NCBI GenBank assembly: GCA_039030075.1
Contig: JBCCEW010000011.1
Coordinates: forward strand, 1-64,000
Direction: 5' to 3'
Length of the DNA: 64,000 bases
Source: Myxococcota bacterium
GTDB taxonomy: Bacteria; Myxococcota_A; UBA9160; SMWR01
How positions within the stretch are numbered: the first letter of the stretch is position 1; every line of letters starts with the position of its first letter. Below the pieces are notes generated by a model. That model was given only the letters and a program-made list of their open reading frames with translations. It did no database searches and was not told the DNA's origin. Positions 1-55,015 of the stretch are shown here, in pieces. Both the position numbers and the translations under genes were made by a program.

Positions 1-142
1 CCCCCCCCCCCCCCCCGGCCCCGCCCCGCCCCGCCCCCGGCCGGTGCGTCTCCATCGCTCTGCTTCGCGCGGGGCCCCCACCCTCCACCACCCCTGGGCG
101 GGCGGCGGGCGCCCCCCCCCCCCCCCCCACGACCAAGGGTCT
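1..142. repeat. Low-complexity C-rich edge with two poly-C tracts
   Basis: The window opens with 16 consecutive C, then alternating short C and G runs, and positions 112-128 hold 17 more C. The stretch lies downstream of the repeat-protein gene, whose TAA stop is at 143-145. I see no gene in it. It may be a contig-end artefact or a real homopolymer; the sequence alone cannot decide. Confidence 0.8.
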
Positions 143-1588
143 TTAGAACGAGTTGTCCACCGAGGCCGTGATGTTCACGGACTGCTGGGTACCCGCGTTC
201 GCACCGGAGTTCACCGTAGCCTGGGTGATACCGGTGTTGTTCGACAGCGCTCCGCCCGTCACGCGAGCCGAGTTGTCCACGGTGCCCTTGCCAAGGGACG
301 CATTCAGCACCTTGTTGTTGGACACTTCGTTGTGCAGGTCGGTCATCGACACGATCGCGTCGGCGCCAGCCGCGATGCCGTGATCGTCAGCGATCACGGC
401 GCTCACCGTCTGACCGGCGATCGAGTCGTCGCCGCTGGCCTTGATCTCCACCGAGTTGTCGGTGGCATCGTGGCCGGCCGCGATGTTCTCGTGACCGTCG
501 GCGTCGACTTCCATCGAGTTGTCGGTGGCGTCGCCCGTGCCCGAAGCCACGGAGTCATCGCCATCGGCGTCGACTTCCTGCTCCATGGAGTTGTCGGTCG
601 CGTCGCCGTTGGCCGCCGCAATGCTGCCCTTGCTGGCGTCAGCCTGGGCGGAGTTGTCGGTGGCATCGCCGTTGGCGGCCGCAATCGCGCCCTTCTCGGC
701 GTCGGCCTCGGCCGAGTTGTCGGTGGCGTCGCCCGTGCCCGAAGCCACGGAGTCATCGCCGTCGGCGTCGACTTCCTGGTACTGCGAGTTGTCGGTGGCG
801 TCGCCGGTACCCGAAGCGATCGAGTAGTCGCCGTCCGCGTCGACTTCCTGCTCCATGGAGTTGTCGGTCGCATCACCATTACCCGCAGCGACGGACTCGT
901 CCTTGGCGGCGGCCGCGGTGGCGGTGGCCGTCTTGGTGTCGTTGTCCTCGTAGACCGAGTTGTCTGTCTTCGTGACGGTGTTGGTCTTCGTGTCGTTGTC
1001 TTCGTAGACCGAGTTGTCCGTCTTCGTGACCGTCTTGGTCTTCGTGTCGTTGTCTTCGTACACCGAGTTGTCTTCGTAGGACTTCGTGTCGTTGTCCTCG
1101 TAAGTCTTGGTGTCGTTGTCTTCCTTGGTGATCGTGACGGTATTGGTCTTCGTATCGTTGTCTTCGTAGACCGAGTTGTCTTCGTACGTCTTGGTGTCGT
1201 TGTCCTCGTAGACCGAGTTGTCGGTCTTCGTGGCCGTCACCGTGTTGGTCTTCGTGTCGTTGTCTTCGTAAGTCTTGGTGTCGTTGTCCTCGTAGACCGA
1301 GTTATCGGTCTTCGTGGCCGTCACCGTGTTGGTCTTCGTGTCGTTGTCTTCGTAGACCGAGTTGTCGTCCTTGGTCAGCGTCACCGTCTTGGTGTCGTCG
1401 TCCGAGTACGTCGAGTTGTCGGTCTTCGTGTACGTCTCAGTGTTCGTGGCATCGTTGCCGGCTGCGACCGAGCCCTTTTCGGCCTCGACCTTGCCGGCTG
1501 CATCGCGCTCTTCCGCCGCGGCGCCCGTCGCAACGAGGGCCGCCAGGGGGGCGGTCAACAACGCGAGCCAGATCCTCTCGAGCTGCAT
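143..1588 (-). CDS. Secreted, acidic tandem-repeat protein (amyloid- or Ca-binding-like)
   Basis: A 481-residue protein with a cleavable-looking signal peptide (hydrophobic residues 6-24, Ala-rich end near 25). Residues 55-220 are a Thr/Asp-rich array with nine copies of YEDNDTKT or one-residue variants, separated by DNSV and TVT(A)TKT segments. Residues 238-392 are a second array of 21-24 residue units starting DATDNS (seven copies), several with DADGD, an Asp spacing like calcium loops. The C-terminal 90 residues are Asn/Gly/Ser-rich, include GANAGTQQSVNI and end in DNSF. There is no Cys and no recognised enzyme domain. The start has a strong site (GCGGAGGAAAAGCAC before ATG). A sigma-54 promoter lies about 70 bp upstream and an activator gene is divergent. 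An extracellular fibre, matrix or surface protein is inferred; no family is recognised. Confidence 0.85.
   Translation of the reverse strand: MQLERIWLALLTAPLAALVATGAAAEERDAAGKVEAEKGSVAAGNDATNTETYTKTDNSTYSDDDTKTVTLTKDDNSVYEDNDTKTNTVTATKTDNSVYEDNDTKTYEDNDTKTNTVTATKTDNSVYEDNDTKTYEDNSVYEDNDTKTNTVTITKEDNDTKTYEDNDTKSYEDNSVYEDNDTKTKTVTKTDNSVYEDNDTKTNTVTKTDNSVYEDNDTKTATATAAAAKDESVAAGNGDATDNSMEQEVDADGDYSIASGTGDATDNSQYQEVDADGDDSVASGTGDATDNSAEADAEKGAIAAANGDATDNSAQADASKGSIAAANGDATDNSMEQEVDADGDDSVASGTGDATDNSMEVDADGHENIAAGHDATDNSVEIKASGDDSIAGQTVSAVIADDHGIAAGADAIVSMTDLHNEVSNNKVLNASLGKGTVDNSARVTGGALSNNTGITQATVNSGANAGTQQSVNITASVDNSF
413..877 (-). repeat. Coding repeat array II (21-24 residue DATDNS units)
   Basis: Seven diverged units encode residues 238-392 of the secreted repeat protein. 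Each begins DATDNS. Units of about 24 residues carry EVDADGD and SVASGTG; units of about 21 residues carry KG(A/S)IAAANG. Units 1, 2 and 5 are nearly identical in DNA, which suggests recent duplication or conversion. Confidence 0.85.
929..1426 (-). repeat. Coding minisatellite array I (YEDNDTKT units)
   Basis: This array encodes residues 55-220. On the + strand the recurring words are gtcgttgtcttcgta and gaccgagttgtc, read as DTKT/YEDND and DNSV. Unit order is irregular (single, double and truncated units), as expected from slippage or unequal recombination. All units keep the reading frame. Confidence 0.9.
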
Positions 1589-1658: not shown

Positions 1659-1674
1659 TGCACGGTGCGTGCCA
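1659..1674 (-). promoter_or_regulatory. Sigma-54 (-24/-12) promoter of the repeat-protein gene
   Basis: The minus strand reads TGGCACGCACCGTGCA. Compared with the RpoN consensus TGGCACG-N4-TTGCW it differs at one defined position and has the required GG-N10-GC spacing. The predicted start site is near 1648, leaving a leader of about 60 nt before the ATG at 1588. Confidence 0.8.
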
Positions 1675-1760: not shown

Positions 1761-1778
1761 TGTACGGGAAGCCGTACA
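1761..1778. promoter_or_regulatory. Palindrome 1, candidate activator-binding site
   Basis: TGTACGGGAAGCCGTACA has 7-bp arms around GAAG and is perfectly symmetrical. It is centred about 120 bp upstream of the predicted sigma-54 start site, within the usual range for enhancer-binding proteins. It lies between the repeat-protein gene and the divergent activator gene. Confidence 0.6.
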
Positions 1779-1803: not shown

Positions 1804-1823
1804 GTGTACGGGAACCCTTACAC
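1804..1823. promoter_or_regulatory. Palindrome 2, candidate activator-binding site
   Basis: GTGTACGGGAACCCTTACAC matches 8 of 10 positions between its arms and shares TGTACGGGAA and the following CTGGG with palindrome 1. The two sites start 44 bp apart, about four helical turns, and so would face the same side of the DNA. Confidence 0.55.
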
Positions 1824-2060: not shown

Positions 2061-3488
2061 TTGGCTGAAGCGGTGTTAGCTGGGCTGGACGGTGAATACG
2101 AAGAGGGCTCCTTTCTCTGGATCGGAGTCGAGCCCTCTCTTGCGCGAGAGCTCCGCGGACTCCTGCCGGCGGGGGCCCGGGTCGAAACCCATGCGGCGGC
2201 GGGCAGTCCTCGCGCGAACGGGCGCGAGCCGGCTGACACCCCGCATCACGACGCCATCCTTCTCGACGCCACCGTGTTCCCGCGCCGTGAACGCGAACGG
2301 CGGGTGAACGAAGTCCTCGGCGAGATCTACCGCGCGGACCCCCGCACCCAGCTCGTCGCGCTCGTGCCCGGCGACGACCCGGACGCCCTCCTGGCTTCCG
2401 TGCGCGCGGGCGTCCGCGACGTCCTCGCACCGGGCTCCGATCCCACCGAGATCTCCGCGGCGCTCCAGAGCGCCGCGCGGATGCGTCGACTCCTGGAACT
2501 CCGCGAGGGCCCCTTACCCAGAACCGAGCGACTCGAGACCCTCGGGCAGATGATCGGCTCGAGCGCGGAGATGCGACAATGCTTCTCCCTGGTCCGCCGG
2601 GTCGCGTCGAGTGAGGTCCCGGTGCTGATCACCGGCGAGAGCGGCACCGGGAAGGAGCTCGCAGCGCGCGCCATTCATGAGAGTGGCGATCGCGCCTCGG
2701 GGCCGTTCGTGCCGATCAACTGCGCCGCCATTCCGGAGCCGCTCCTCGAGGCCGAACTCTTCGGGCACGAACGCGGCGCGTTCACGGGCGCGGGCCAATC
2801 GCGCCCGGGGCACGTCGAGGCGGCCGACGGGGGAACCCTCTTCCTGGACGAGATCGGGGAGCTCGCTCCCTCGCTCCAGGCAAAGCTGTTGCGCTTCCTC
2901 GAAGATCACACGGTCGTGCGTGTCGGCGGCCGCCGGGGTATCCCGATCGACGTCCGGATCGTGGCCGCGACGAACCGCGATCTGGCGCAGGAGGTCACCG
3001 AAGGCGCCTTCCGTCAGGACCTCTACTACCGGCTCGCGGTCTTTCAGCTTTCCATGCCGGCCCTCCGCGAGCGCCCGGGCGATACCATCCCGCTCGCCCG
3101 TATGTTCCTCGAACGCTACGGAGACGGTCGCCCGAGCCAGGCCCTGCGCCTCACGCCGGACGCGGAAGAGGCGCTGCGCAACGCGCCGTGGCCTGGCAAT
3201 GTCCGCGAGCTGATCAACCGCGTGCGCCGCGCGATCGTGGTGGTGGATGGGCCGACGATCGGGGCCGAGGAACTCGGGCTGAGCGAGTGGGTGCCCGAAC
3301 TTCCCGCGCGCCCCCAACCTCTACGCGAAGCGCGGCAACAGGCCGAAGCCGAGTGCATCCAGCGCGCACTCGAACACCACGAAGGCAACAAGTCGGGAGC
3401 CGCGCGAAGCCTCGGGGTCAGTCGCACCCAGCTGTACGAACTGATGCACCGACACGGACTCGGAACGCTCTGGAGCGCGCGGGCGTAG
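2061..3488 (+). CDS. Sigma-54-dependent enhancer-binding transcriptional activator
   Basis: 475 residues, the normal length for an NtrC-family activator. Residues 1-135 look like a degenerate receiver (LLDA strand, then AGVRDVLAPGSDPTEI, resembling CpaE/TadZ-type pseudo-receivers). The AAA+ domain at about 165-395 has Walker A GESGTGKE, the sigma-54-contacting GAFTGA loop, Walker B LFLDEIGE and an arginine-finger region. A Fis-type helix-turn-helix (about 430-470) ends the protein. The start is TTG, chosen because GGGAGG sits 9 nt upstream and no in-frame ATG precedes the receiver. The divergent repeat-protein gene has a sigma-54 promoter and paired palindromes, so it is the likely target. 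PrsR-like activators of exopolysaccharide/PEP-CTERM systems are an alternative relative. Confidence 0.93.
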   Translation: MAEAVLAGLDGEYEEGSFLWIGVEPSLARELRGLLPAGARVETHAAAGSPRANGREPADTPHHDAILLDATVFPRRERERRVNEVLGEIYRADPRTQLVALVPGDDPDALLASVRAGVRDVLAPGSDPTEISAALQSAARMRRLLELREGPLPRTERLETLGQMIGSSAEMRQCFSLVRRVASSEVPVLITGESGTGKELAARAIHESGDRASGPFVPINCAAIPEPLLEAELFGHERGAFTGAGQSRPGHVEAADGGTLFLDEIGELAPSLQAKLLRFLEDHTVVRVGGRRGIPIDVRIVAATNRDLAQEVTEGAFRQDLYYRLAVFQLSMPALRERPGDTIPLARMFLERYGDGRPSQALRLTPDAEEALRNAPWPGNVRELINRVRRAIVVVDGPTIGAEELGLSEWVPELPARPQPLREARQQAEAECIQRALEHHEGNKSGAARSLGVSRTQLYELMHRHGLGTLWSARA

Positions 3489-3499
3489 CCCGGACCGTA

Positions 3500-3805
3500 C
3501 TAGGCGCGGAGGCTCTGGGGCAGACCGCCGAGCGCCTTGTGAACACGGCGCTTCAGCCGCTGGCCTTCGGGCGCGAGCTTCGCAATGTCGGTCTTCACCA
3601 GGAAGGGGTCGATGCCGCCGTACTTCTGCACGGTGCGGAGCGCGCGCGTCGTCACGCGCAGCGGCACCGGGCGCTTCAGCGCATCCGAGTAGAACGTGAC
3701 GTTCTGGAGGTTCGGATCGAAGCGGCGGTTCGTCTTGCGATTCGAGTGCGAGACGTTGTGGCCGAACTGGGGTTTGGTGCCGAGCAGATCGCAGCGACGC
3801 GCCAT
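3500..3805 (-). CDS. rpmB: 50S ribosomal protein L28
   Basis: 101 residues. The N-terminus MARRCDLLGTKPQFGHNVSH followed by KTNRRFDPNLQ is the L28 signature, binding 23S rRNA in the large subunit. It has one Cys (residue 5) and lacks the CxxC zinc pair of C+ paralogues. The C-terminus is longer than in E. coli and resembles the approximately 98-residue alphaproteobacterial form. AGGAAG lies about 8 nt before the ATG. It converges on the activator gene with an 11-nt gap and stands alone, without rpmG. Confidence 0.96.
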   Translation of the reverse strand: MARRCDLLGTKPQFGHNVSHSNRKTNRRFDPNLQNVTFYSDALKRPVPLRVTTRALRTVQKYGGIDPFLVKTDIAKLAPEGQRLKRRVHKALGGLPQSLRA

Positions 3806-5622: not shown

Positions 5623-8243
5623 AGCTGCTCCGGCTCCGACTCCGCCACTACCGGGGCACCGAGGCGCGCGAGATCGCGCTCGCGCCCGACGGTGTCACGC
5701 TCATCGTCGGACCGAACGAGATCGGGAAGTCCAGCCTCTTCGAAGCCCTGGACCTCCTCTTCGACGAACTCGACAACACGACGAAGCAGCGGGTGCGGGA
5801 CGTGAAGCCCGTCGACCGGGATGCCGCGACGGAGATCGAAGCCGAGCTCCGCGTCGGTAGCGCGCACCTGACCTACCAGAAGCGCTTCCACCGTAAACCG
5901 GCGACCGAGCTGCGCCTCCACGCACCGCGCGTCGGAACGTGGACTGGGCGTGAGGCCCACGAGAAAGCGCTCGCGCTGCTCGGGGAACACGTCGACCTTT
6001 CACTCTGGCGGGCGCTCCGGATCCTGCAGCAGACGCCGCTGGCGCCGCCGAACCTGGCCGATGCACCGAGCCTGACCCAAGCGCTCGATCGCGTCGCCGG
6101 CGGTTCCGGGGAAGGCGAGCGCGAGGGGACCCTCTTCGACGCAGCCGAGGCGCACTACGGCGAGTACTTCACGCCAACGGGTCGCGACCGCAAGGCGGCG
6201 CGCACGCTCGAGAGCGGCTGGGAAGACGCGCGTCGGGAATCCGAAGCGGCCCGGCAAGCCCTCGAAGCGCTGGAGGCGGACGTCGCCGAGGAAGCGCGTT
6301 TGCGTGACGCCGTCGCGACGGTGGAAACCGGACTCGCAGAATCGAAGAATGCACTCGCGGCACTAGAGGCAGAACTCGAGACAATCGGGGAGCTGCGCAA
6401 CTCGCTCGCGCAACGACAGGGGGAGCTCGACACGGCCCTCGCGGTCGAGCGTGAATCCATCCAAGCCGCGCGTCAGCGTGGACAGCTCGTGTCGGCCCAG
6501 ACTGGCGCCGCGGCGGAAGTCGAGAGCCTCGCCGAGGCACTCGAGAGCGAGGAGCCGGCCCATATCGCAGCGGGCGCCGAACTGCGCCACGTCGAGGAGA
6601 ACCTCGCAGCGGCGCGCGAAGCCCGGGACCAGGCCCACTCGGTGGCCGAGTGGGCGCAGCGCGACGCTCGCTTCCGGCGCGGCGAACGCACGCTCCGTGA
6701 ACTGCAAGCGCGCACCGAACGCGTGGCCCGAGAGGAGCGTGAAGTGGAGCGCGCACGCGCGCTCCTCGCGGGCCCCGAGATCACACCCGCGCAGCTGCAA
6801 GCGATCCAGGAGGCGCAGGTGGTCGTCGATGCCGCGCGGGCACGACTCGCGGCCGAGGGGCCCATGGTGACACTCCAACCCGAAGCCGCGCTGGAGGTGT
6901 CCGTCGATGGGGAGCGTCGGCGCATCGGCCCGGGGGAGCCGCTCGAAGCGCGCGTTTCCGAGGCACTGACCCTCCACGTCCCCGGCGTCGGCGACCTCTG
7001 GGTCGTCGCGGGCGCCGCGGTCGCCGAACGCCGCAAGAGTCTCGAGGAGGCCGAGACGCGCCTGCGCGGGTTGTGCATGGAAGCCGACGTCGACGATCAC
7101 GCCGGGGCCGTCGCAGCGGTCACCGCACGCAAGGCCGCCCGCGAGGAGCTCTCTCGCAGCGAAGCGCGCCTTGCCGAGGCCCTCGGCAAGACCGATGCAG
7201 CCGCGCTCGAAGAGCGCGTCGCCAAGCTGGCGCGCGATTGCGATCGGTACCGCGAAGTGCGCGACGCCACCACTCCTCTCCCCGCCGATCTCGAGAGCGC
7301 GGAACGCGCGACGGAAGCGACTGCGCGCGAGGCAGAGCGGGCACGCGCGTCGACGGAAGAACTCGATCGGCGCCATGCCGACGCATCGCGGCGCTTCGCC
7401 CACTACGAGCAACACCGCAGTGAAACCCGCACGCGCCTCGAGCTCGCCGAGCGCAACCGCTCGGACCTCACGCTGCGCCTCGAGGAAGCCCGTAGCCAGG
7501 AAGGCGACGAGGTCCTCGAAACGAATCGAGACGCGGCGTCGGAGCGGGTCCGCGAGCTCGACGCACGCGTTCAGGAGGCGCGCCGGGCCCTGACGGAACG
7601 CGAGCCGGATGCCATCGAGAGCCGGGCACACGAGCGACGCGATGCCCGGGACGCCCTGGCTCGGGAACTGCGCGAGCTGCAGGACGGGTGGGTCCGTGTC
7701 GGTGAGCGACTCGAGATCGCGGGCAACGAGGGCCGCTTCGAACGCTTGCAGGAGGCAGAGCGAAACCGGGCGAGCGCCGAGCGCGCGCTCGACCGCTACC
7801 GGCGCCGGGCAAGCGCGGCGGCGCGTCTCTTCACCGCGTTGCGGGATGCACGCGAAGCCCAGCGAAGGCACTACGCAGCCCCCCTGGCCGACACCATCGC
7901 GGCGATGGGGCGTCCGCTCTACGGGACCGACTTCGGGGTCGAGCTCGACGAGGAACTCGCCGTTGCGCGTCGCATCGCAGGGGGCACGGCGCTCGCGCCG
8001 CGTCAACTCTCCACGGGCGCCCAGGAGCAGCTCTCGCTCCTCACCCGTCTCGCTGCCGCGAAGCTGGCGGGCGATGTCCCCCTTTGGCTCGACGACGCCC
8101 TTGGGCACACCGACCCGCAGCGTCTGGCTGCCCTGGGCCCACTGATCGCCGCGGCCGGCAAAGCCCATCAGGTGCTGGTGCTGACCTGCGACCCGGAGCG
8201 GTTCCGAAGCGTGACCGGGGCGCGCATCGTGGCTCTCGACTGA
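5619..8243 (+). CDS. Rad50/SbcC-like SMC ATPase without a zinc hook
   Basis: 874 residues from a GTG that overlaps the nuclease stop; AAGGAG lies 8 nt before it. The N-terminal ATPase half has Walker A GPNEIGKSSLFEAL. Long Arg/Glu/Ala-rich coiled coils follow. The C-terminal half has the signature LSTGAQEQLSLL and Walker B VPLWLDDALGHTD. No CxxC hook exists; instead residues about 413-464 form a beta-rich segment (MVTLQPEAALEVSVDG ... LTLHVPGVGDLWVVAGA) at the coil apex. Together with the preceding gene it should form an Mre11-Rad50-type DNA-end complex. Confidence 0.9.
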   Translation: MKLLRLRLRHYRGTEAREIALAPDGVTLIVGPNEIGKSSLFEALDLLFDELDNTTKQRVRDVKPVDRDAATEIEAELRVGSAHLTYQKRFHRKPATELRLHAPRVGTWTGREAHEKALALLGEHVDLSLWRALRILQQTPLAPPNLADAPSLTQALDRVAGGSGEGEREGTLFDAAEAHYGEYFTPTGRDRKAARTLESGWEDARRESEAARQALEALEADVAEEARLRDAVATVETGLAESKNALAALEAELETIGELRNSLAQRQGELDTALAVERESIQAARQRGQLVSAQTGAAAEVESLAEALESEEPAHIAAGAELRHVEENLAAAREARDQAHSVAEWAQRDARFRRGERTLRELQARTERVAREEREVERARALLAGPEITPAQLQAIQEAQVVVDAARARLAAEGPMVTLQPEAALEVSVDGERRRIGPGEPLEARVSEALTLHVPGVGDLWVVAGAAVAERRKSLEEAETRLRGLCMEADVDDHAGAVAAVTARKAAREELSRSEARLAEALGKTDAAALEERVAKLARDCDRYREVRDATTPLPADLESAERATEATAREAERARASTEELDRRHADASRRFAHYEQHRSETRTRLELAERNRSDLTLRLEEARSQEGDEVLETNRDAASERVRELDARVQEARRALTEREPDAIESRAHERRDARDALARELRELQDGWVRVGERLEIAGNEGRFERLQEAERNRASAERALDRYRRRASAAARLFTALRDAREAQRRHYAAPLADTIAAMGRPLYGTDFGVELDEELAVARRIAGGTALAPRQLSTGAQEQLSLLTRLAAAKLAGDVPLWLDDALGHTDPQRLAALGPLIAAAGKAHQVLVLTCDPERFRSVTGARIVALD

Positions 8244-13858: not shown

Positions 13859-14499
13859 CCCTTTCCGCCGCTCTCGAGAGCGCGCCGCTCACCGTCCTGC
13901 TCGACGTGCGCCACCCCCAGGCCTATCTCGCCCTGGGTCCCACCCTCGAGCTCGCCGCCGCGACCCACCTCACACCGAACTGGCTCCCGATCGCCGCGCA
14001 GACCCTGCGCGCGCCGGGGAACGCGGCGCCCACCGACGATCGCGGCGCGCGGCACCGGCGGTATCGGGCCGAGGCGATCGCGCGCGAGATCGAGACCTAT
14101 GCCGAGGCCCAGGAGCTCGAAATCCGGGGCTACTACCGCGACGGCGCACCCGAGGGCGCGCATCTCGCTTGGCTCTGGGTGCGTCACCACTACCCGGAGC
14201 GACTCGTGGAGTTTCTCCAGGCCGTGTTTCGCGGCTACTGGAAACAGGAACTCGAGATCGCGTCGCCGTCCCAGCTCGCCCCCGTTCTCGACGAGCTCGG
14301 CCTCCCCTCGGCCGCCTTCCTCGACTGGGTGGCAGGCGAAGGCGCGGATGCACTGCGGCAGCTCGGCGAAGAGCTCCGCGGGCACGGGTTGCAGCAGGTG
14401 CCGATGTTCGTGGTGGAAGACGAGGTGTTCTGGGGACGACAGCATCTTCCGATGATCCGTTGGATCCTCGAAGGGCGTCGCGGCCCCGGCCCGATCTAG
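13855..14499 (+). CDS. Degenerate DsbA-fold (HCCA isomerase-like) paralogue
   Basis: 214 residues, same fold as the preceding gene: VPMFVVEDEVFWGRQHLPMI aligns with the partner's VPTYLVEDEAWFGREHLP. In the N-terminal motif SPYAY becomes HPQAY, so the catalytic Ser is lost. It could be a non-catalytic partner subunit or bind a different substrate. Start and stop overlaps show tight translational coupling with its neighbour. Confidence 0.8.
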   Translation: MTLSAALESAPLTVLLDVRHPQAYLALGPTLELAAATHLTPNWLPIAAQTLRAPGNAAPTDDRGARHRRYRAEAIAREIETYAEAQELEIRGYYRDGAPEGAHLAWLWVRHHYPERLVEFLQAVFRGYWKQELEIASPSQLAPVLDELGLPSAAFLDWVAGEGADALRQLGEELRGHGLQQVPMFVVEDEVFWGRQHLPMIRWILEGRRGPGPI

Positions 14500-14501
14500 C
14501 C

Positions 14502-14936
14502 ATGCGTCGCACCCTCGTGCGCGGTGCACTCGGACTCGTCGTGGCGCTGCTCGGGTTCGCGGGGTTCACGCTGTGGGCTCTCGAGAGCGGGGCCGTGGTG
14601 GTGGTCGAGACCCGCGACGGCGAGGGCGCCACCCGCGAGACGCGGGTCTGGTTCGTCGAGCGCGACGACGGTCTCTGGATCGAGGCGGGAACTCCCGAGA
14701 ACCCGTGGTTCGTCGACGTGCTGCGCGAACCGTCGCTCACGCTGAGGGGCGACAAGGTCGCCGGCCGCTACCGCGCGCTTCCCCAACCCAACCCGGAAGG
14801 GCACCGACGCATCCGCGCCTGGCTACGCGAGAAGTATGGGATCCGCGACGCGTGGGTAGCGTTCGTCTTCGACACGGAGCGTTCGATCGCCGTGCGCCTG
14901 GAGCCCCTCCCGGGCGCGGACGCGCCCCCGAGCTAG
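14502..14936 (+). CDS. Membrane-anchored split-barrel (PNPOx/F420-type) protein
   Basis: 144 residues: one N-terminal transmembrane helix (residues 8-28) and then a small beta-barrel. The segments ETRVWFVERDDGLWIEAG and ENPWFVDVLREPSLTL resemble flavin/deazaflavin-dependent reductases of the Ddn/DUF385 type. The window carries F420 genes, which makes F420 a plausible cofactor, but this is inference. The ATG follows the upstream stop by 2 nt. Its stop shares a CTAG with the convergent GFA gene. Confidence 0.65.
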   Translation: MRRTLVRGALGLVVALLGFAGFTLWALESGAVVVVETRDGEGATRETRVWFVERDDGLWIEAGTPENPWFVDVLREPSLTLRGDKVAGRYRALPQPNPEGHRRIRAWLREKYGIRDAWVAFVFDTERSIAVRLEPLPGADAPPS

Positions 14937-15358
14937 AGCCGCTGGTTCGCCGGGGGCCTGCCCGGAAAGGCCTGCATGGTGTCCGACTCCGCGAGCCAGT
15001 CGGGAACGTCGTCGGTGAAGATCCTGCGGAACGGACGCACCTCGGGCTCGTCGTCCAGCACGCCGGCCAATACCATCATCCACTTCGTGTCGCCCAGACG
15101 GACGGGCATGGGAGATCCGCACACCCGGCAGAAGGACCGCAGCATCGCGGGCGGCTCCCGCAACAGCGGCGCCTCGTAGTGGGTCAGCAGATCCTCGCCA
15201 CGCACCCAGGAGAACGCTTCGCGATCCACGGCGAACTCGGGCGCCAGGACCGAACCCGTGAGTTTCTGACAGCGACGCGCGTGGCAGAACTGGATCGGCG
15301 TCGCGCCACCTTCGAAGCGAAACGCCACGCCACCACACAGACAACTGCCCGTCGTCAT
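14933..15358 (-). CDS. GFA (glutathione-dependent formaldehyde-activating) family protein
   Basis: 141 residues with the Cys sets CLCGGVAF, CHARRCQ and CRVCGSPM that bind zinc in GFA/CENP-V proteins. The family name comes from an enzyme proposed to speed formaldehyde-glutathione adduct formation; most members are uncharacterised. AGGAGGCGGAC precedes the ATG. A second GFA protein lies at 24.7 kb. Confidence 0.92.
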   Translation of the reverse strand: MTTGSCLCGGVAFRFEGGATPIQFCHARRCQKLTGSVLAPEFAVDREAFSWVRGEDLLTHYEAPLLREPPAMLRSFCRVCGSPMPVRLGDTKWMMVLAGVLDDEPEVRPFRRIFTDDVPDWLAESDTMQAFPGRPPANQRL

Positions 15359-15438
15359 GTCCGCCTCCTGCGCTGACGCCGCGCGCGGCGTGGTTCGCGA
15401 GGAAGGTAGCGGGCGTCCGGGACGGCGAGTCCCTGGGC

Positions 15439-52106: not shown

Positions 52107-55015
52107 GTCCCCCCTCCCTGTTCCGTACGTTCCGCAGCGGGTTCCGTACGCTCCCCAGCGGGTTCCGTACCGTCCGCAGCAGGTCCCGGACCGCCGGAAG
52201 CGGATTCCGGGCCGTTCGTGGCGGAATCTAGCCCGCTCACCGCGGTGGCGCCGAGCTCCAGCTCACGCGCCAGACCGACGAGCTCTTGCAGCGAAGCCGT
52301 CTCGATCTCACAGCCCGGCGGCAGCGCCGCGCTCAGCCGCTCGAAGTAGGGCTTGTCGCGCCGCGGGTCCACGACCACCACCAGGCCTCGGTCGTCTTCC
52401 GAGCGAATCAGGCGACCGACCATCTGCTTCAGATTCAGCAGCATCTTGCCCAGCGTGAAGAGCTCGAAGGCGTCCCCGCCCTGGTCGCGGATTCGCCCCT
52501 CGCGCCGCCGGCGCAACTCGTTCGGCACCTCGAAGGGCAGCTTCTCGATCACGACGGCTTCGAGCGCAGGGCCGGGCACGTCGATCCCCTGCCAGAAGGT
52601 GCGCGCCCCGAGCAGCACGCCGCCCCCGCCGGCGCGACGAAATCGCTCGACCAACGCCCCCGGATCGTCCGTGGCGCGCCGCGGCATCCAGACCTCGATG
52701 CCGTCGGGACGCAGCGCTGCGGAGAGCCGCGCCTGGACCTCGCGCATGCGCAGCAGGCTGGTGAAGAGCCCGAGTGTGCGGCCGCCGAGAGCGCGTCCGA
52801 GCTCGGTCAAGACCTGGGTGGTGAGCTCGACCGGGTCGCCCCGGTCCACGAGCGCCACGACACGCATGTGGGACGCGTAGTCGAAGGGGCTGGGTAGCGA
52901 TGCACGCCAACTCGGCGCCTCCCCGCTCTCGACCTCCAGCTCGCCCATGGCCGCGAACGCGTCGCCCCCGACGAAGAGACTGGCAGACACGCCGGCGAAT
53001 GCCTCGAGCTTCTCGAGCAGCTGACCGTGGAAGGCGCGCGCCGGCGACACCGCGCGCAGCGCCATCCGCCAGCGATCGAAGGGTTCGTGCAGTTCATCGA
53101 AGGCCGCGACGATCGCGTCGTCCTCGGCGAACGCGCCGCGCAGGGAAGCGGCCGCATCGCGCAGCTCGCCGACATCGCGCTCGATCTGCTCCGAGATCTC
53201 GTCGTCTTCACCGCGCTCTTCGTTCAGGTCGCTGGCGAGCCCGGCGAGATCCTCGAGACGGGCCGCCGCACGATCGGCGGCCTCGGCCGCGTCGGGCACC
53301 ACGCGCGGTGCGTGGGGCGGCAGCTGGACCTCCCCGAAGTCGCTGGCGCGCGGCGCCAATGCACGGCCCAACAGCCGCAGCTCTTGCAGCAGATCGCCCC
53401 GCGCCACCCGGGGCGACGCCCCGGTCCGCGGACGTAAGAGCGGCGGCGTGCGCCGCACGGGTCCGCCGAAGAGCGCGTCGAGTCGCTCGAAGAGCCGCTC
53501 GGGACGCACTTCCGTTGCATAGGCCTCGTCGGCGACGCCCACCAACTCATGGGCCTCGTCCGCGATCACATGACCGAAGTTCGGGTAGTCGGGCGGCCAA
53601 CGCAGCAAGAGGTCGTGGTTCGCCACGACCAGCTCCGCCCGGCCCAGCGCCGAACGCCGCTTCCCGAACGGACACTGGGGTTCCGACGCGCACTGCTCCC
53701 GGGTGCAGTGTTCGGCGCGGGCGGCCACCGAGCGCTTCCGGAGCTCGCGCAGCGGCGGGAAACGCCCGAGCAGTCCTGCGGGCAGCGTGCCCACCTCGCC
53801 GTGCGGACGCAGTCGCGTGCAGCTCGCGAGCGCGGCATACGAACGACGATCGCGCGGGTCGACGAGCGGGCTCTCTCCCTCGGCCAGCGCCTGGAGCGTG
53901 CGGCGCTGGCAGAGATAGTTCGCGCGGCCCTTGATCGACAGCGCGCGCAGGTCCGAGTAGCCGAGGAAGGCTGCGGCCGCGGGAATGTCCTTCCGGAGCA
54001 GCTGATCCTGCAAGACCTTCGTGCGGGTCGAGATCACCACCGGATCTCGCACGCCGCCGGCCGCGCGCTCGACGGCGAAGGGAATCGCCGCCGCGAGATA
54101 GGCGAGCGACTTCCCGACGCCCGTTCCGCCCTCGAGCAGGAGACGGCCGCCCTCGTCGAGTAGTCGCACGAACTCGCGCGCCATCTCGATCTGGGGCTCG
54201 CGCACGCGGTAGCGCGGGAAGTGCCGCCGACCGCGGGCTTCGTCGGCGAGCGCGGCCGCAATGGCGTCGGCGTCGAAGGGGACCCGCGGCTCGGGACTCT
54301 TGGGGATCCGGATGAACTGGGGCGCCGCCGGCGCCGGCAGTGGCAGGCCCGAGGTCGCGAGCAGGGGGAGCCACGGGTCCTCGGGCGCGTAGGTCTCGAG
54401 GGCCGCCCGCGCCGTGTCGAAGCGGGTGTCGCCTTCGTGGGCCCGGCGCGCGATCTGGGAGAGGACGGCCGCCGCATCCACCGCGTCGGACAGCGCGCGA
54501 TGGCGCTCCTCGCGTTCGAGCAGCCGGTCGACGAAGGTGGCGAGCCGCAGATCCGGCGAATCGGGGAAGCAGATCCCGAGGATGTCCTGGGTGTCCAGGT
54601 ACGTCGCCTGGGCAAACGCGGGAGACAAGAAGCGCGTCAGGAAGTGGCGCTCGAAGTCGGCGTTGTGGGCCACGATCACCCGCCCCGACAAGAGCTGCAG
54701 AAGCTCGGGAGCCACCGCTCCGATCGAAGGCGCGTCCCGAAGATCGGCATCGCGCAGACCCGTGAGCGCCGTGATCGCCGCGGGCACGCTTCCCTGCGGC
54801 CGGATCCGGCTCTCGAAACAGCGGGCACCGTTCCCGTCCAGCAGGACTGCGCCCACCTCGATCGGCTCGGCGCGTCCTTCCTGCGGGAGTCCGGTGGTCT
54901 CGAAGTCGACGACCGCCACCGGGCCCGTCTTCGCCAGCCACGGCGCCAACGCGTCCAGATCGATCCCGTCGTCGCCCGACGCGAGCGCGCGCGGGGGTCC
55001 GGTCAGCGCGGGCAT
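52103..55015 (-). CDS. DEDDh exonuclease fused to XPD/DinG-type helicase
   Basis: 970 residues. The N-terminal exonuclease has VVDFETTGL, VAHNADFERHF and HRALSDAVDA (DEDDh). The helicase has GGTGVGKSLAYL, a Cys set (NYLCQRR, HCTREQCASEPQCPF) for a [4Fe-4S] cluster, DEAHEL and the C-terminal motifs VDRGDPVEL, ARTFWQGIDVPG. This fusion resembles the Gram-positive DinG, in contrast to E. coli DinG. DNA structure processing is predicted. The C-terminal tail is disordered and repeat-encoded. Confidence 0.94.
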   Translation of the reverse strand: MPALTGPPRALASGDDGIDLDALAPWLAKTGPVAVVDFETTGLPQEGRAEPIEVGAVLLDGNGARCFESRIRPQGSVPAAITALTGLRDADLRDAPSIGAVAPELLQLLSGRVIVAHNADFERHFLTRFLSPAFAQATYLDTQDILGICFPDSPDLRLATFVDRLLEREERHRALSDAVDAAAVLSQIARRAHEGDTRFDTARAALETYAPEDPWLPLLATSGLPLPAPAAPQFIRIPKSPEPRVPFDADAIAAALADEARGRRHFPRYRVREPQIEMAREFVRLLDEGGRLLLEGGTGVGKSLAYLAAAIPFAVERAAGGVRDPVVISTRTKVLQDQLLRKDIPAAAAFLGYSDLRALSIKGRANYLCQRRTLQALAEGESPLVDPRDRRSYAALASCTRLRPHGEVGTLPAGLLGRFPPLRELRKRSVAARAEHCTREQCASEPQCPFGKRRSALGRAELVVANHDLLLRWPPDYPNFGHVIADEAHELVGVADEAYATEVRPERLFERLDALFGGPVRRTPPLLRPRTGASPRVARGDLLQELRLLGRALAPRASDFGEVQLPPHAPRVVPDAAEAADRAAARLEDLAGLASDLNEERGEDDEISEQIERDVGELRDAAASLRGAFAEDDAIVAAFDELHEPFDRWRMALRAVSPARAFHGQLLEKLEAFAGVSASLFVGGDAFAAMGELEVESGEAPSWRASLPSPFDYASHMRVVALVDRGDPVELTTQVLTELGRALGGRTLGLFTSLLRMREVQARLSAALRPDGIEVWMPRRATDDPGALVERFRRAGGGGVLLGARTFWQGIDVPGPALEAVVIEKLPFEVPNELRRRREGRIRDQGGDAFELFTLGKMLLNLKQMVGRLIRSEDDRGLVVVVDPRRDKPYFERLSAALPPGCEIETASLQELVGLARELELGATAVSGLDSATNGPESASGGPGPAADGTEPAGERTEPAAERTEQGGGT
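52120..52224 (-). repeat. Five diverged 21-bp tandem repeats at the helicase C-terminus
   Basis: Units start with gttccgtac on the + strand (52120, 52141, 52162) and diverge at 52183 and 52204. They encode a 7-residue PES/TEPA(A/G)ER-type disordered tail. In frame and within the gene. Confidence 0.8.

Follow-up and report, generated by a model that had tools for sequence, protein, structure and literature searches.

A DNS-repeat protein at a Myxococcota contig end is a probable fibre subunit of a Fap-like amyloid system

The window analysed here, the first 64 kb of contig C11 in the 55-contig genome (G000) of a Myxococcota bacterium, begins with a gene for a protein that is probably the long, acidic and repeat-rich fibre subunit in an extracellular amyloid system akin to Fap. 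Sequence comparison makes it a member of a widespread family, and no published description of this family or of its cargo was found in the open-access literature. Surveys have left most FapD/FapF homologues outside fap operons without known cargo (PMC3792158, PMC6173800); we propose proteins of this kind as the cargo for a share of those homologues, in alpha-, beta-, gamma- and deltaproteobacteria. In the suggested design, an acidic tail of variable length carries a single amyloid module. In addition, a leader motif in neighbouring proteins of the operon suggests a target for the FapD protease.

The gene occupies positions 143..1588 of the minus strand, on which all parts of the protein described here are encoded. 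It is an open frame of 481 codons for a putatively secreted product, with C-terminal homology to repeat proteins encoded 5' of C39 and FapF genes elsewhere. A Sec-type signal peptide, MQLERIWLALLTAPLAALVATGAAA, can be read directly at residues 1-25 (1514..1588), with a predicted cleavage site, and is followed by a degenerate array-II-like unit, KVEAEKGSVAAGNDATNT, recognised by eye at residues 33-50 (1439..1492; GSVAAGNDATN). Array I (residues 57-226; 911..1420), delimited by Tandem Repeats Finder and unit analysis, consists of DNSVYEDNDTKT units with an optional NTVTATKT, and array II (residues 227-391; 416..910), delimited by unit analysis, of seven (I/V)A..GDATDNS units of 21 or 24 residues, some with DADGD. 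The conserved C-terminal module, SNNTGITQATVNSGANAGTQQSVNITASV, spans residues 413-481 (146..352) and is, by leave-one-out HMM and profile comparisons, a predicted single Fap-like amyloid repeat. The first-pass annotation had placed the feature at 413-1426; the arrays it described are real, but that extent is too short, as it omits both the array-II-like unit 5' of array I and the C-terminal module.

That annotation had also proposed two repeat types sharing one DNS register, and the counts bear this out. The mature protein contains 17 DNS triads against a mean of 0.63 and a maximum of 4 in 2000 composition-preserving shuffles, with one triad at the start of every unit in both arrays, spaced by 14-36 residues in array I and by 21 or 24 in array II, and the triad recurs C-terminally, as had been noted, in DNSAR (residue 438) and DNSF (residue 478). 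The seven units of array II compare with 0.01 in shuffles, and Tandem Repeats Finder independently recovers both arrays, the freshest duplication being an 84-nt unit of array I at 1175-1354 with 97% matches. Units 1, 2 and 5 of array II are indeed alike, but "nearly identical in DNA" was too strong a wording: their pairwise DNA identities are 82%, 88% and 92%, with synonymous codon differences of 6/20, 6/22 and 2/22. Elsewhere in the window, a tandem repeat with a 21-nt unit in 4.3 copies lies at 52120-52209. The protein has a pI of about 4 and a net charge of -0.16 per residue, is hydrophilic and low in aromatics, and has no cysteine in its mature form. Their strongly acidic character (net -0.15 to -0.23 per residue) and scarcity of hydrophobics make the arrays unlikely to form an amyloid core themselves.

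As a query, the whole protein found no relative in 60 related genomes or genome contigs and no match in the PDB. Pfam gave a single sub-threshold match; a beta-flower match (17.5 bits, cut-off 34) was rejected as compositional. Low complexity and divergence hide the family, so that relatives were found by the C-terminal module alone. The last 90 residues gave matches with weak E-values to secreted proteins in two genomes of the same order, namely four tandem proteins of 160-195 residues in G010 and one member of a three-gene set in G034; module-search matches at E 0.02-1 were mostly antisense or in unrelated frames and were dropped. Downstream of the three-gene set, G034 encodes a small secreted protein, a C39 peptidase (Pfam E=4e-18), a protein of 157 residues and the beginning of a FapF-like protein, a layout which, judged by its gene order, is that of a Fap amyloid operon. 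In G010 the four small secreted module proteins (L056:9184-13075, contig C290) stand beside a sigma-54 response regulator, and a C39 gene was not found in that genome.

Five C39 proteins, used as queries against genome contigs, yielded 80 named proteobacterial loci, and because these were picked by C39 similarity, the following co-occurrence counts apply to this C39 family rather than to bacteria at large; the ORF and motif counts rest on mechanical start choices. A FapF homologue is present in 76 of the 80 loci and a small protein lies directly 5' of the C39 gene in 66; most loci further encode a D/N/S/T-rich or G-rich repeat protein 5' of the small protein, the repeat gene lying about 64 nt 5' of the small gene. 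Many of these upstream repeat proteins end in a motif like AGITQVSQNSGANSLTQQQVSVQAHL. A profile built from the C-termini of 34 relatives, with our protein left out, ranked it first (E=1.9e-7) and reported none of 2000 shuffles of it, and the C-terminal motif G-I-x4-(Q/N)-(N/S)-S/T-G-x3-S/A-x2-Q-Q-x-V-x-V/I is present in it. The arrays are shared less widely: DNS occurs in at least 5 copies and at more than 3 times expectation in 25 of 68 relatives, array-II-like GSAAANNGSTATVDNS units are found in L077/L078, with a deltaproteobacterium and a Woeseiaceae genome carrying such units, and other members, rich in G/A or in N/D/S, share no array sequence. The Vibrio sp. plasmid NZ_CP071844.1 (L153:5375-9543) encodes a DNS-repeat protein (SFNDNSDNSASLG) together with a FapF-type barrel and a C39-like protein, suggesting that the fibre system can be plasmid-borne. 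The anticipated change in repeat length is seen in relatives. In two strains of Ectothiorhodospira mobilis the first 70 residues are identical and the last 100 nearly identical, but between these ends the arrays show indels of 18, 18, 6 and about 10 residues. Across the family, length ranges from about 200 to 880 residues.

The link to amyloid comes from the C-terminal module. Profile comparison aligned the C-termini of the long proteins with those of the small proteins (95%, E=1.8e-8), and the small-protein module with classical FapB/FapC-type repeats, here those of Aeromonas and of the order's own Fap-like operons (89%, E=2.1e-6; 0/120 column shuffles). Compared directly with Fap repeats, the long-protein module matched weakly (22-25% probability). 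Thus there appears to be one Fap-type amyloid repeat at the end of the long protein and another in its small partner, in the pattern of a major subunit and a nucleator, with the link running via the small protein. An AlphaFold2 model intended for fold search was of too low confidence, both with and without an alignment. A different reading, which we consider unlikely though not negligible, is that the protein is exported by FapD/FapF-like machinery and then forms a disordered surface or matrix adhesin or a hydration coat, without amyloid. The very acidic, hydrophilic composition low in aromatics, the prediction of the arrays as coil and the lack of a common array sequence among G/A-rich or N/D/S-rich members would all suit such a coat. 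Two points speak against it: by profile comparison via the small protein, the C-terminal module belongs among the Fap amyloid repeats, and a relative of the exporter carries amyloid substrates (PMC5557850).

The first-pass annotation had envisaged a solenoid or a fibre and had read DADGD as a calcium-binding loop. A fibre is supported indirectly, by the FapD/FapF-type operon and the C-terminal homology to Fap-type repeats. The solenoid found no support in structure prediction: AlphaFold2 reached a pLDDT of 38 with or without an alignment, and in the aligned run strands appeared in the C-terminal module only. A calcium-binding beta-solenoid or RTX-like protein that folds extracellularly on DADGD loops is very improbable. 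The motif does occur three times in array II of a secreted and acidic protein, but it matches EF-hand positions 1-5 only, position 12 being non-acidic, and it is absent from 2 of 6 DNS-started units and from the related proteins that were read. Reading of the repeat units revealed no full set of calcium ligands, neither an acid at EF-hand position 12 nor GGxGxD nonapeptides, and the Pfam search matched no calcium-binding family (EF-hand, TSP3, RTX). Furthermore, the family is associated with a Fap-type locus, not with an ABC exporter.

Returning to the Fap-like fibre subunit, its gene is preceded by a sigma-54 (-24/-12) promoter motif, TGGCACGCACCGTGCA, with one mismatch, at 1659..1674 on the minus strand, 86 nt 5' of the ATG. 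The site is conserved, though not in every relative: of 64 repeat genes, 16 have it on their 5' side with at most one mismatch, compared with 0.3 expected from shuffles and none on the opposite strand. Between the repeat gene and its divergent neighbour lie a dyad, TGTACGGGAAGCCGTACA (1761..1778), which is a candidate enhancer site for the activator encoded by that neighbour, and a second, variant copy, TGTACGGGAACCCTTACA (1805..1822), spaced 44 nt from the first. The neighbour (2061..3488, plus strand) has the domain matches of a sigma-54 enhancer-binding activator, with no receiver domain matched, and likely regulates the repeat gene; sigma-54 activators are found in the flanks of 48 of the 80 related loci. 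The two nearest relatives of this activator in the order, in G022 and G026, each share a contig with a Fap-like operon, at a distance of about 7-8 kb. In G022, the classical Fap-like operon (L067:6842-8074, minus strand) encodes NQ repeats of the form GI..NQ..G..NNQ, and the related activator lies at about 14200-15370 of the same locus.

The window starts at the first base of C11, and its positions 1..130 form a contig end with a C/G homopolymer tail, at which the downstream operon genes are missing. Both this stretch and the last ~100 bases of L066, a locus on contig C22 of the same genome, are C/G homopolymer or odd low-GC tails, which are probably assembly artefacts where the operon was split. 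The tail, together with the lack of a full-length relative, could suggest a decaying or non-functional low-complexity ORF (an assembly artefact or pseudogene), a reading that is scarcely credible for an open 481-codon frame with a signal peptide, a conserved C-terminus, synonymous differences between repeats and a sigma-54 promoter. With the C39 protein of G034 as query, the one match in the genome lay at the end of C22. Reading inward from that contig end, C22 encodes a small secreted protein, a FapD-like C39 peptidase with the conserved Cys and His, a FapE-position protein and a FapF-like barrel, the last matching solved FapF (5o67) with E=1.4e-34 over 328 residues. NCBIfam models gave E=8e-46 for FapD and E=1e-44 for FapF.

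The repeat gene on C11 reads off the contig start without a downstream partner, and the C22 genes begin at the contig end without an upstream subunit; in G034 the same order is uninterrupted, with module-bearing subunits 5' of the small protein. Because the two contig ends fit in orientation and content and G034 has the joined order, the missing downstream operon apparently sits at the end of C22. A valyl-tRNA synthetase gene is near module genes both on C22 and in G010. A ribosomal protein L28-like gene lies beside the activator (window 3500-3805, minus strand) and an S14-like gene near the FapF gene on C22 (L066 3676-3981); such genes often cluster, which lends slight additional weight to C11 and C22 being adjacent. 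Weighing against the Fap-like reading, the C39 gene was found in none of 16 other searched genomes of the same family. The C39 tree places the gene near alphaproteobacterial rows with weak support (82), and horizontal transfer is not claimed.

The proteins beside the C39 peptidase carry a leader of double-glycine type. The motif ELxxxRGG follows the Sec signal in 34 of 40 FapE-position proteins (0.39 in shuffles); in the small proteins it is present in strict form in 35 of 66 and in loose form in 62 of 66 (0.4 and 12.7 expected), and none of 69 long repeat proteins has it. Examples include the locus on C22 (L066, about 6637-7401, minus strand), L077:8610-9125, L099:8693-9202 and L152:4467-5114, among others; the FapE-position protein reads EELDSMRGG on C22 and DGELAHLRGR in Aeromonas. 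The motif resembles the leader cut by bacteriocin C39 peptidases. In Pseudomonas, the target of FapD is not known, and FapE is the sole Fap protein found fully N-terminally processed (PMC5557850). The conserved site in relatives' FapE-position proteins falls in the region corresponding to the processed FapE N-terminus, and we regard ELxxxRGG as a candidate FapD cleavage site.

We envision that the divergently encoded sigma-54 activator would turn on the operon, and that the repeat subunit and its small partner would pass the inner membrane by Sec and remain unfolded. The periplasmic FapD-like C39 protease would then process the leader-bearing partners and so license export through the FapF-like outer-membrane channel, the presumed route of the repeat protein. 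Outside the cell, the Fap-repeat-like C-terminal module, common to the long subunit and the small partner, would build a cross-beta stack, with the small partner as a FapB/CsgB-like nucleator and the DNS arrays as soluble acidic spacers, long and variable in length in the manner of the hypervariable FapC linkers. A broader proposal, whose prospects we see as evenly poised, has two parts: DNS-array proteins with one Fap-type module would be the main substrates of a second, widespread proteobacterial branch of FapD/FapF amyloid secretion, and FapD would start export by cutting, in the periplasm, the bacteriocin-style ELxxxRGG leader of the FapE-position protein in both branches and of the small nucleator in this one.

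Among known systems, the closest parallel is the Fap system (fapABCDEF) of Pseudomonas and relatives. Like Fap, the present system combines a periplasmic C39 peptidase of the FapD type with a FapE-position protein and a FapF-like barrel, and a long variable subunit bearing a Fap-repeat-like module with a small partner resembling FapB. The DNS arrays stand where FapC has variable linkers; their units are of 14-36 residues and of other sequence, and one C-terminal module replaces the three 37-39-residue FapC repeats separated by linkers. The small protein lies directly 5' of the C39 gene. In the FapF tree, solved FapF groups with G022, G026, G037, G039 and G042 (96%), whereas our genome belongs to an alpha/gamma clade of 26 rows (99%); several of the Fap-group rows are long-branched. 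By these comparisons the system appears to work like Fap yet fails classical membership, because the FapD and FapF scores (156 and 153 bits) are below the NCBIfam equivalog cut-offs (330 and 700), the cysteine-free protein is without the conserved CxxC of FapC, and there is no triple 37-residue repeat.

The Fil pilus of Acinetobacter likewise combines a C39 peptidase (FilB) with a barrel, and the C22 proteins match FilB (117 bits) and FilC (51 bits); these scores are below those of the Fap models, and the repeat protein has no NCBIfam match at all. Curli comprise a nucleator and a major subunit, CsgB and CsgA, made of imperfect repeats. The likeness is the conceptual pairing of the two subunits; curli differ in their exporter, CsgG, and the repeat protein has no curli-repeat match in Pfam. 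Finally, a 2013 survey set aside many FapD/FapF matches outside fap operons as 'false positives' (PMC3792158), and a 2018 review reported co-located fapD-fapF pairs in five further phyla (PMC6173800). The loci of both papers, described without substrates, DNS arrays, a small partner or a sigma-54 promoter, very probably belong to the same wider exporter family as the system described here.
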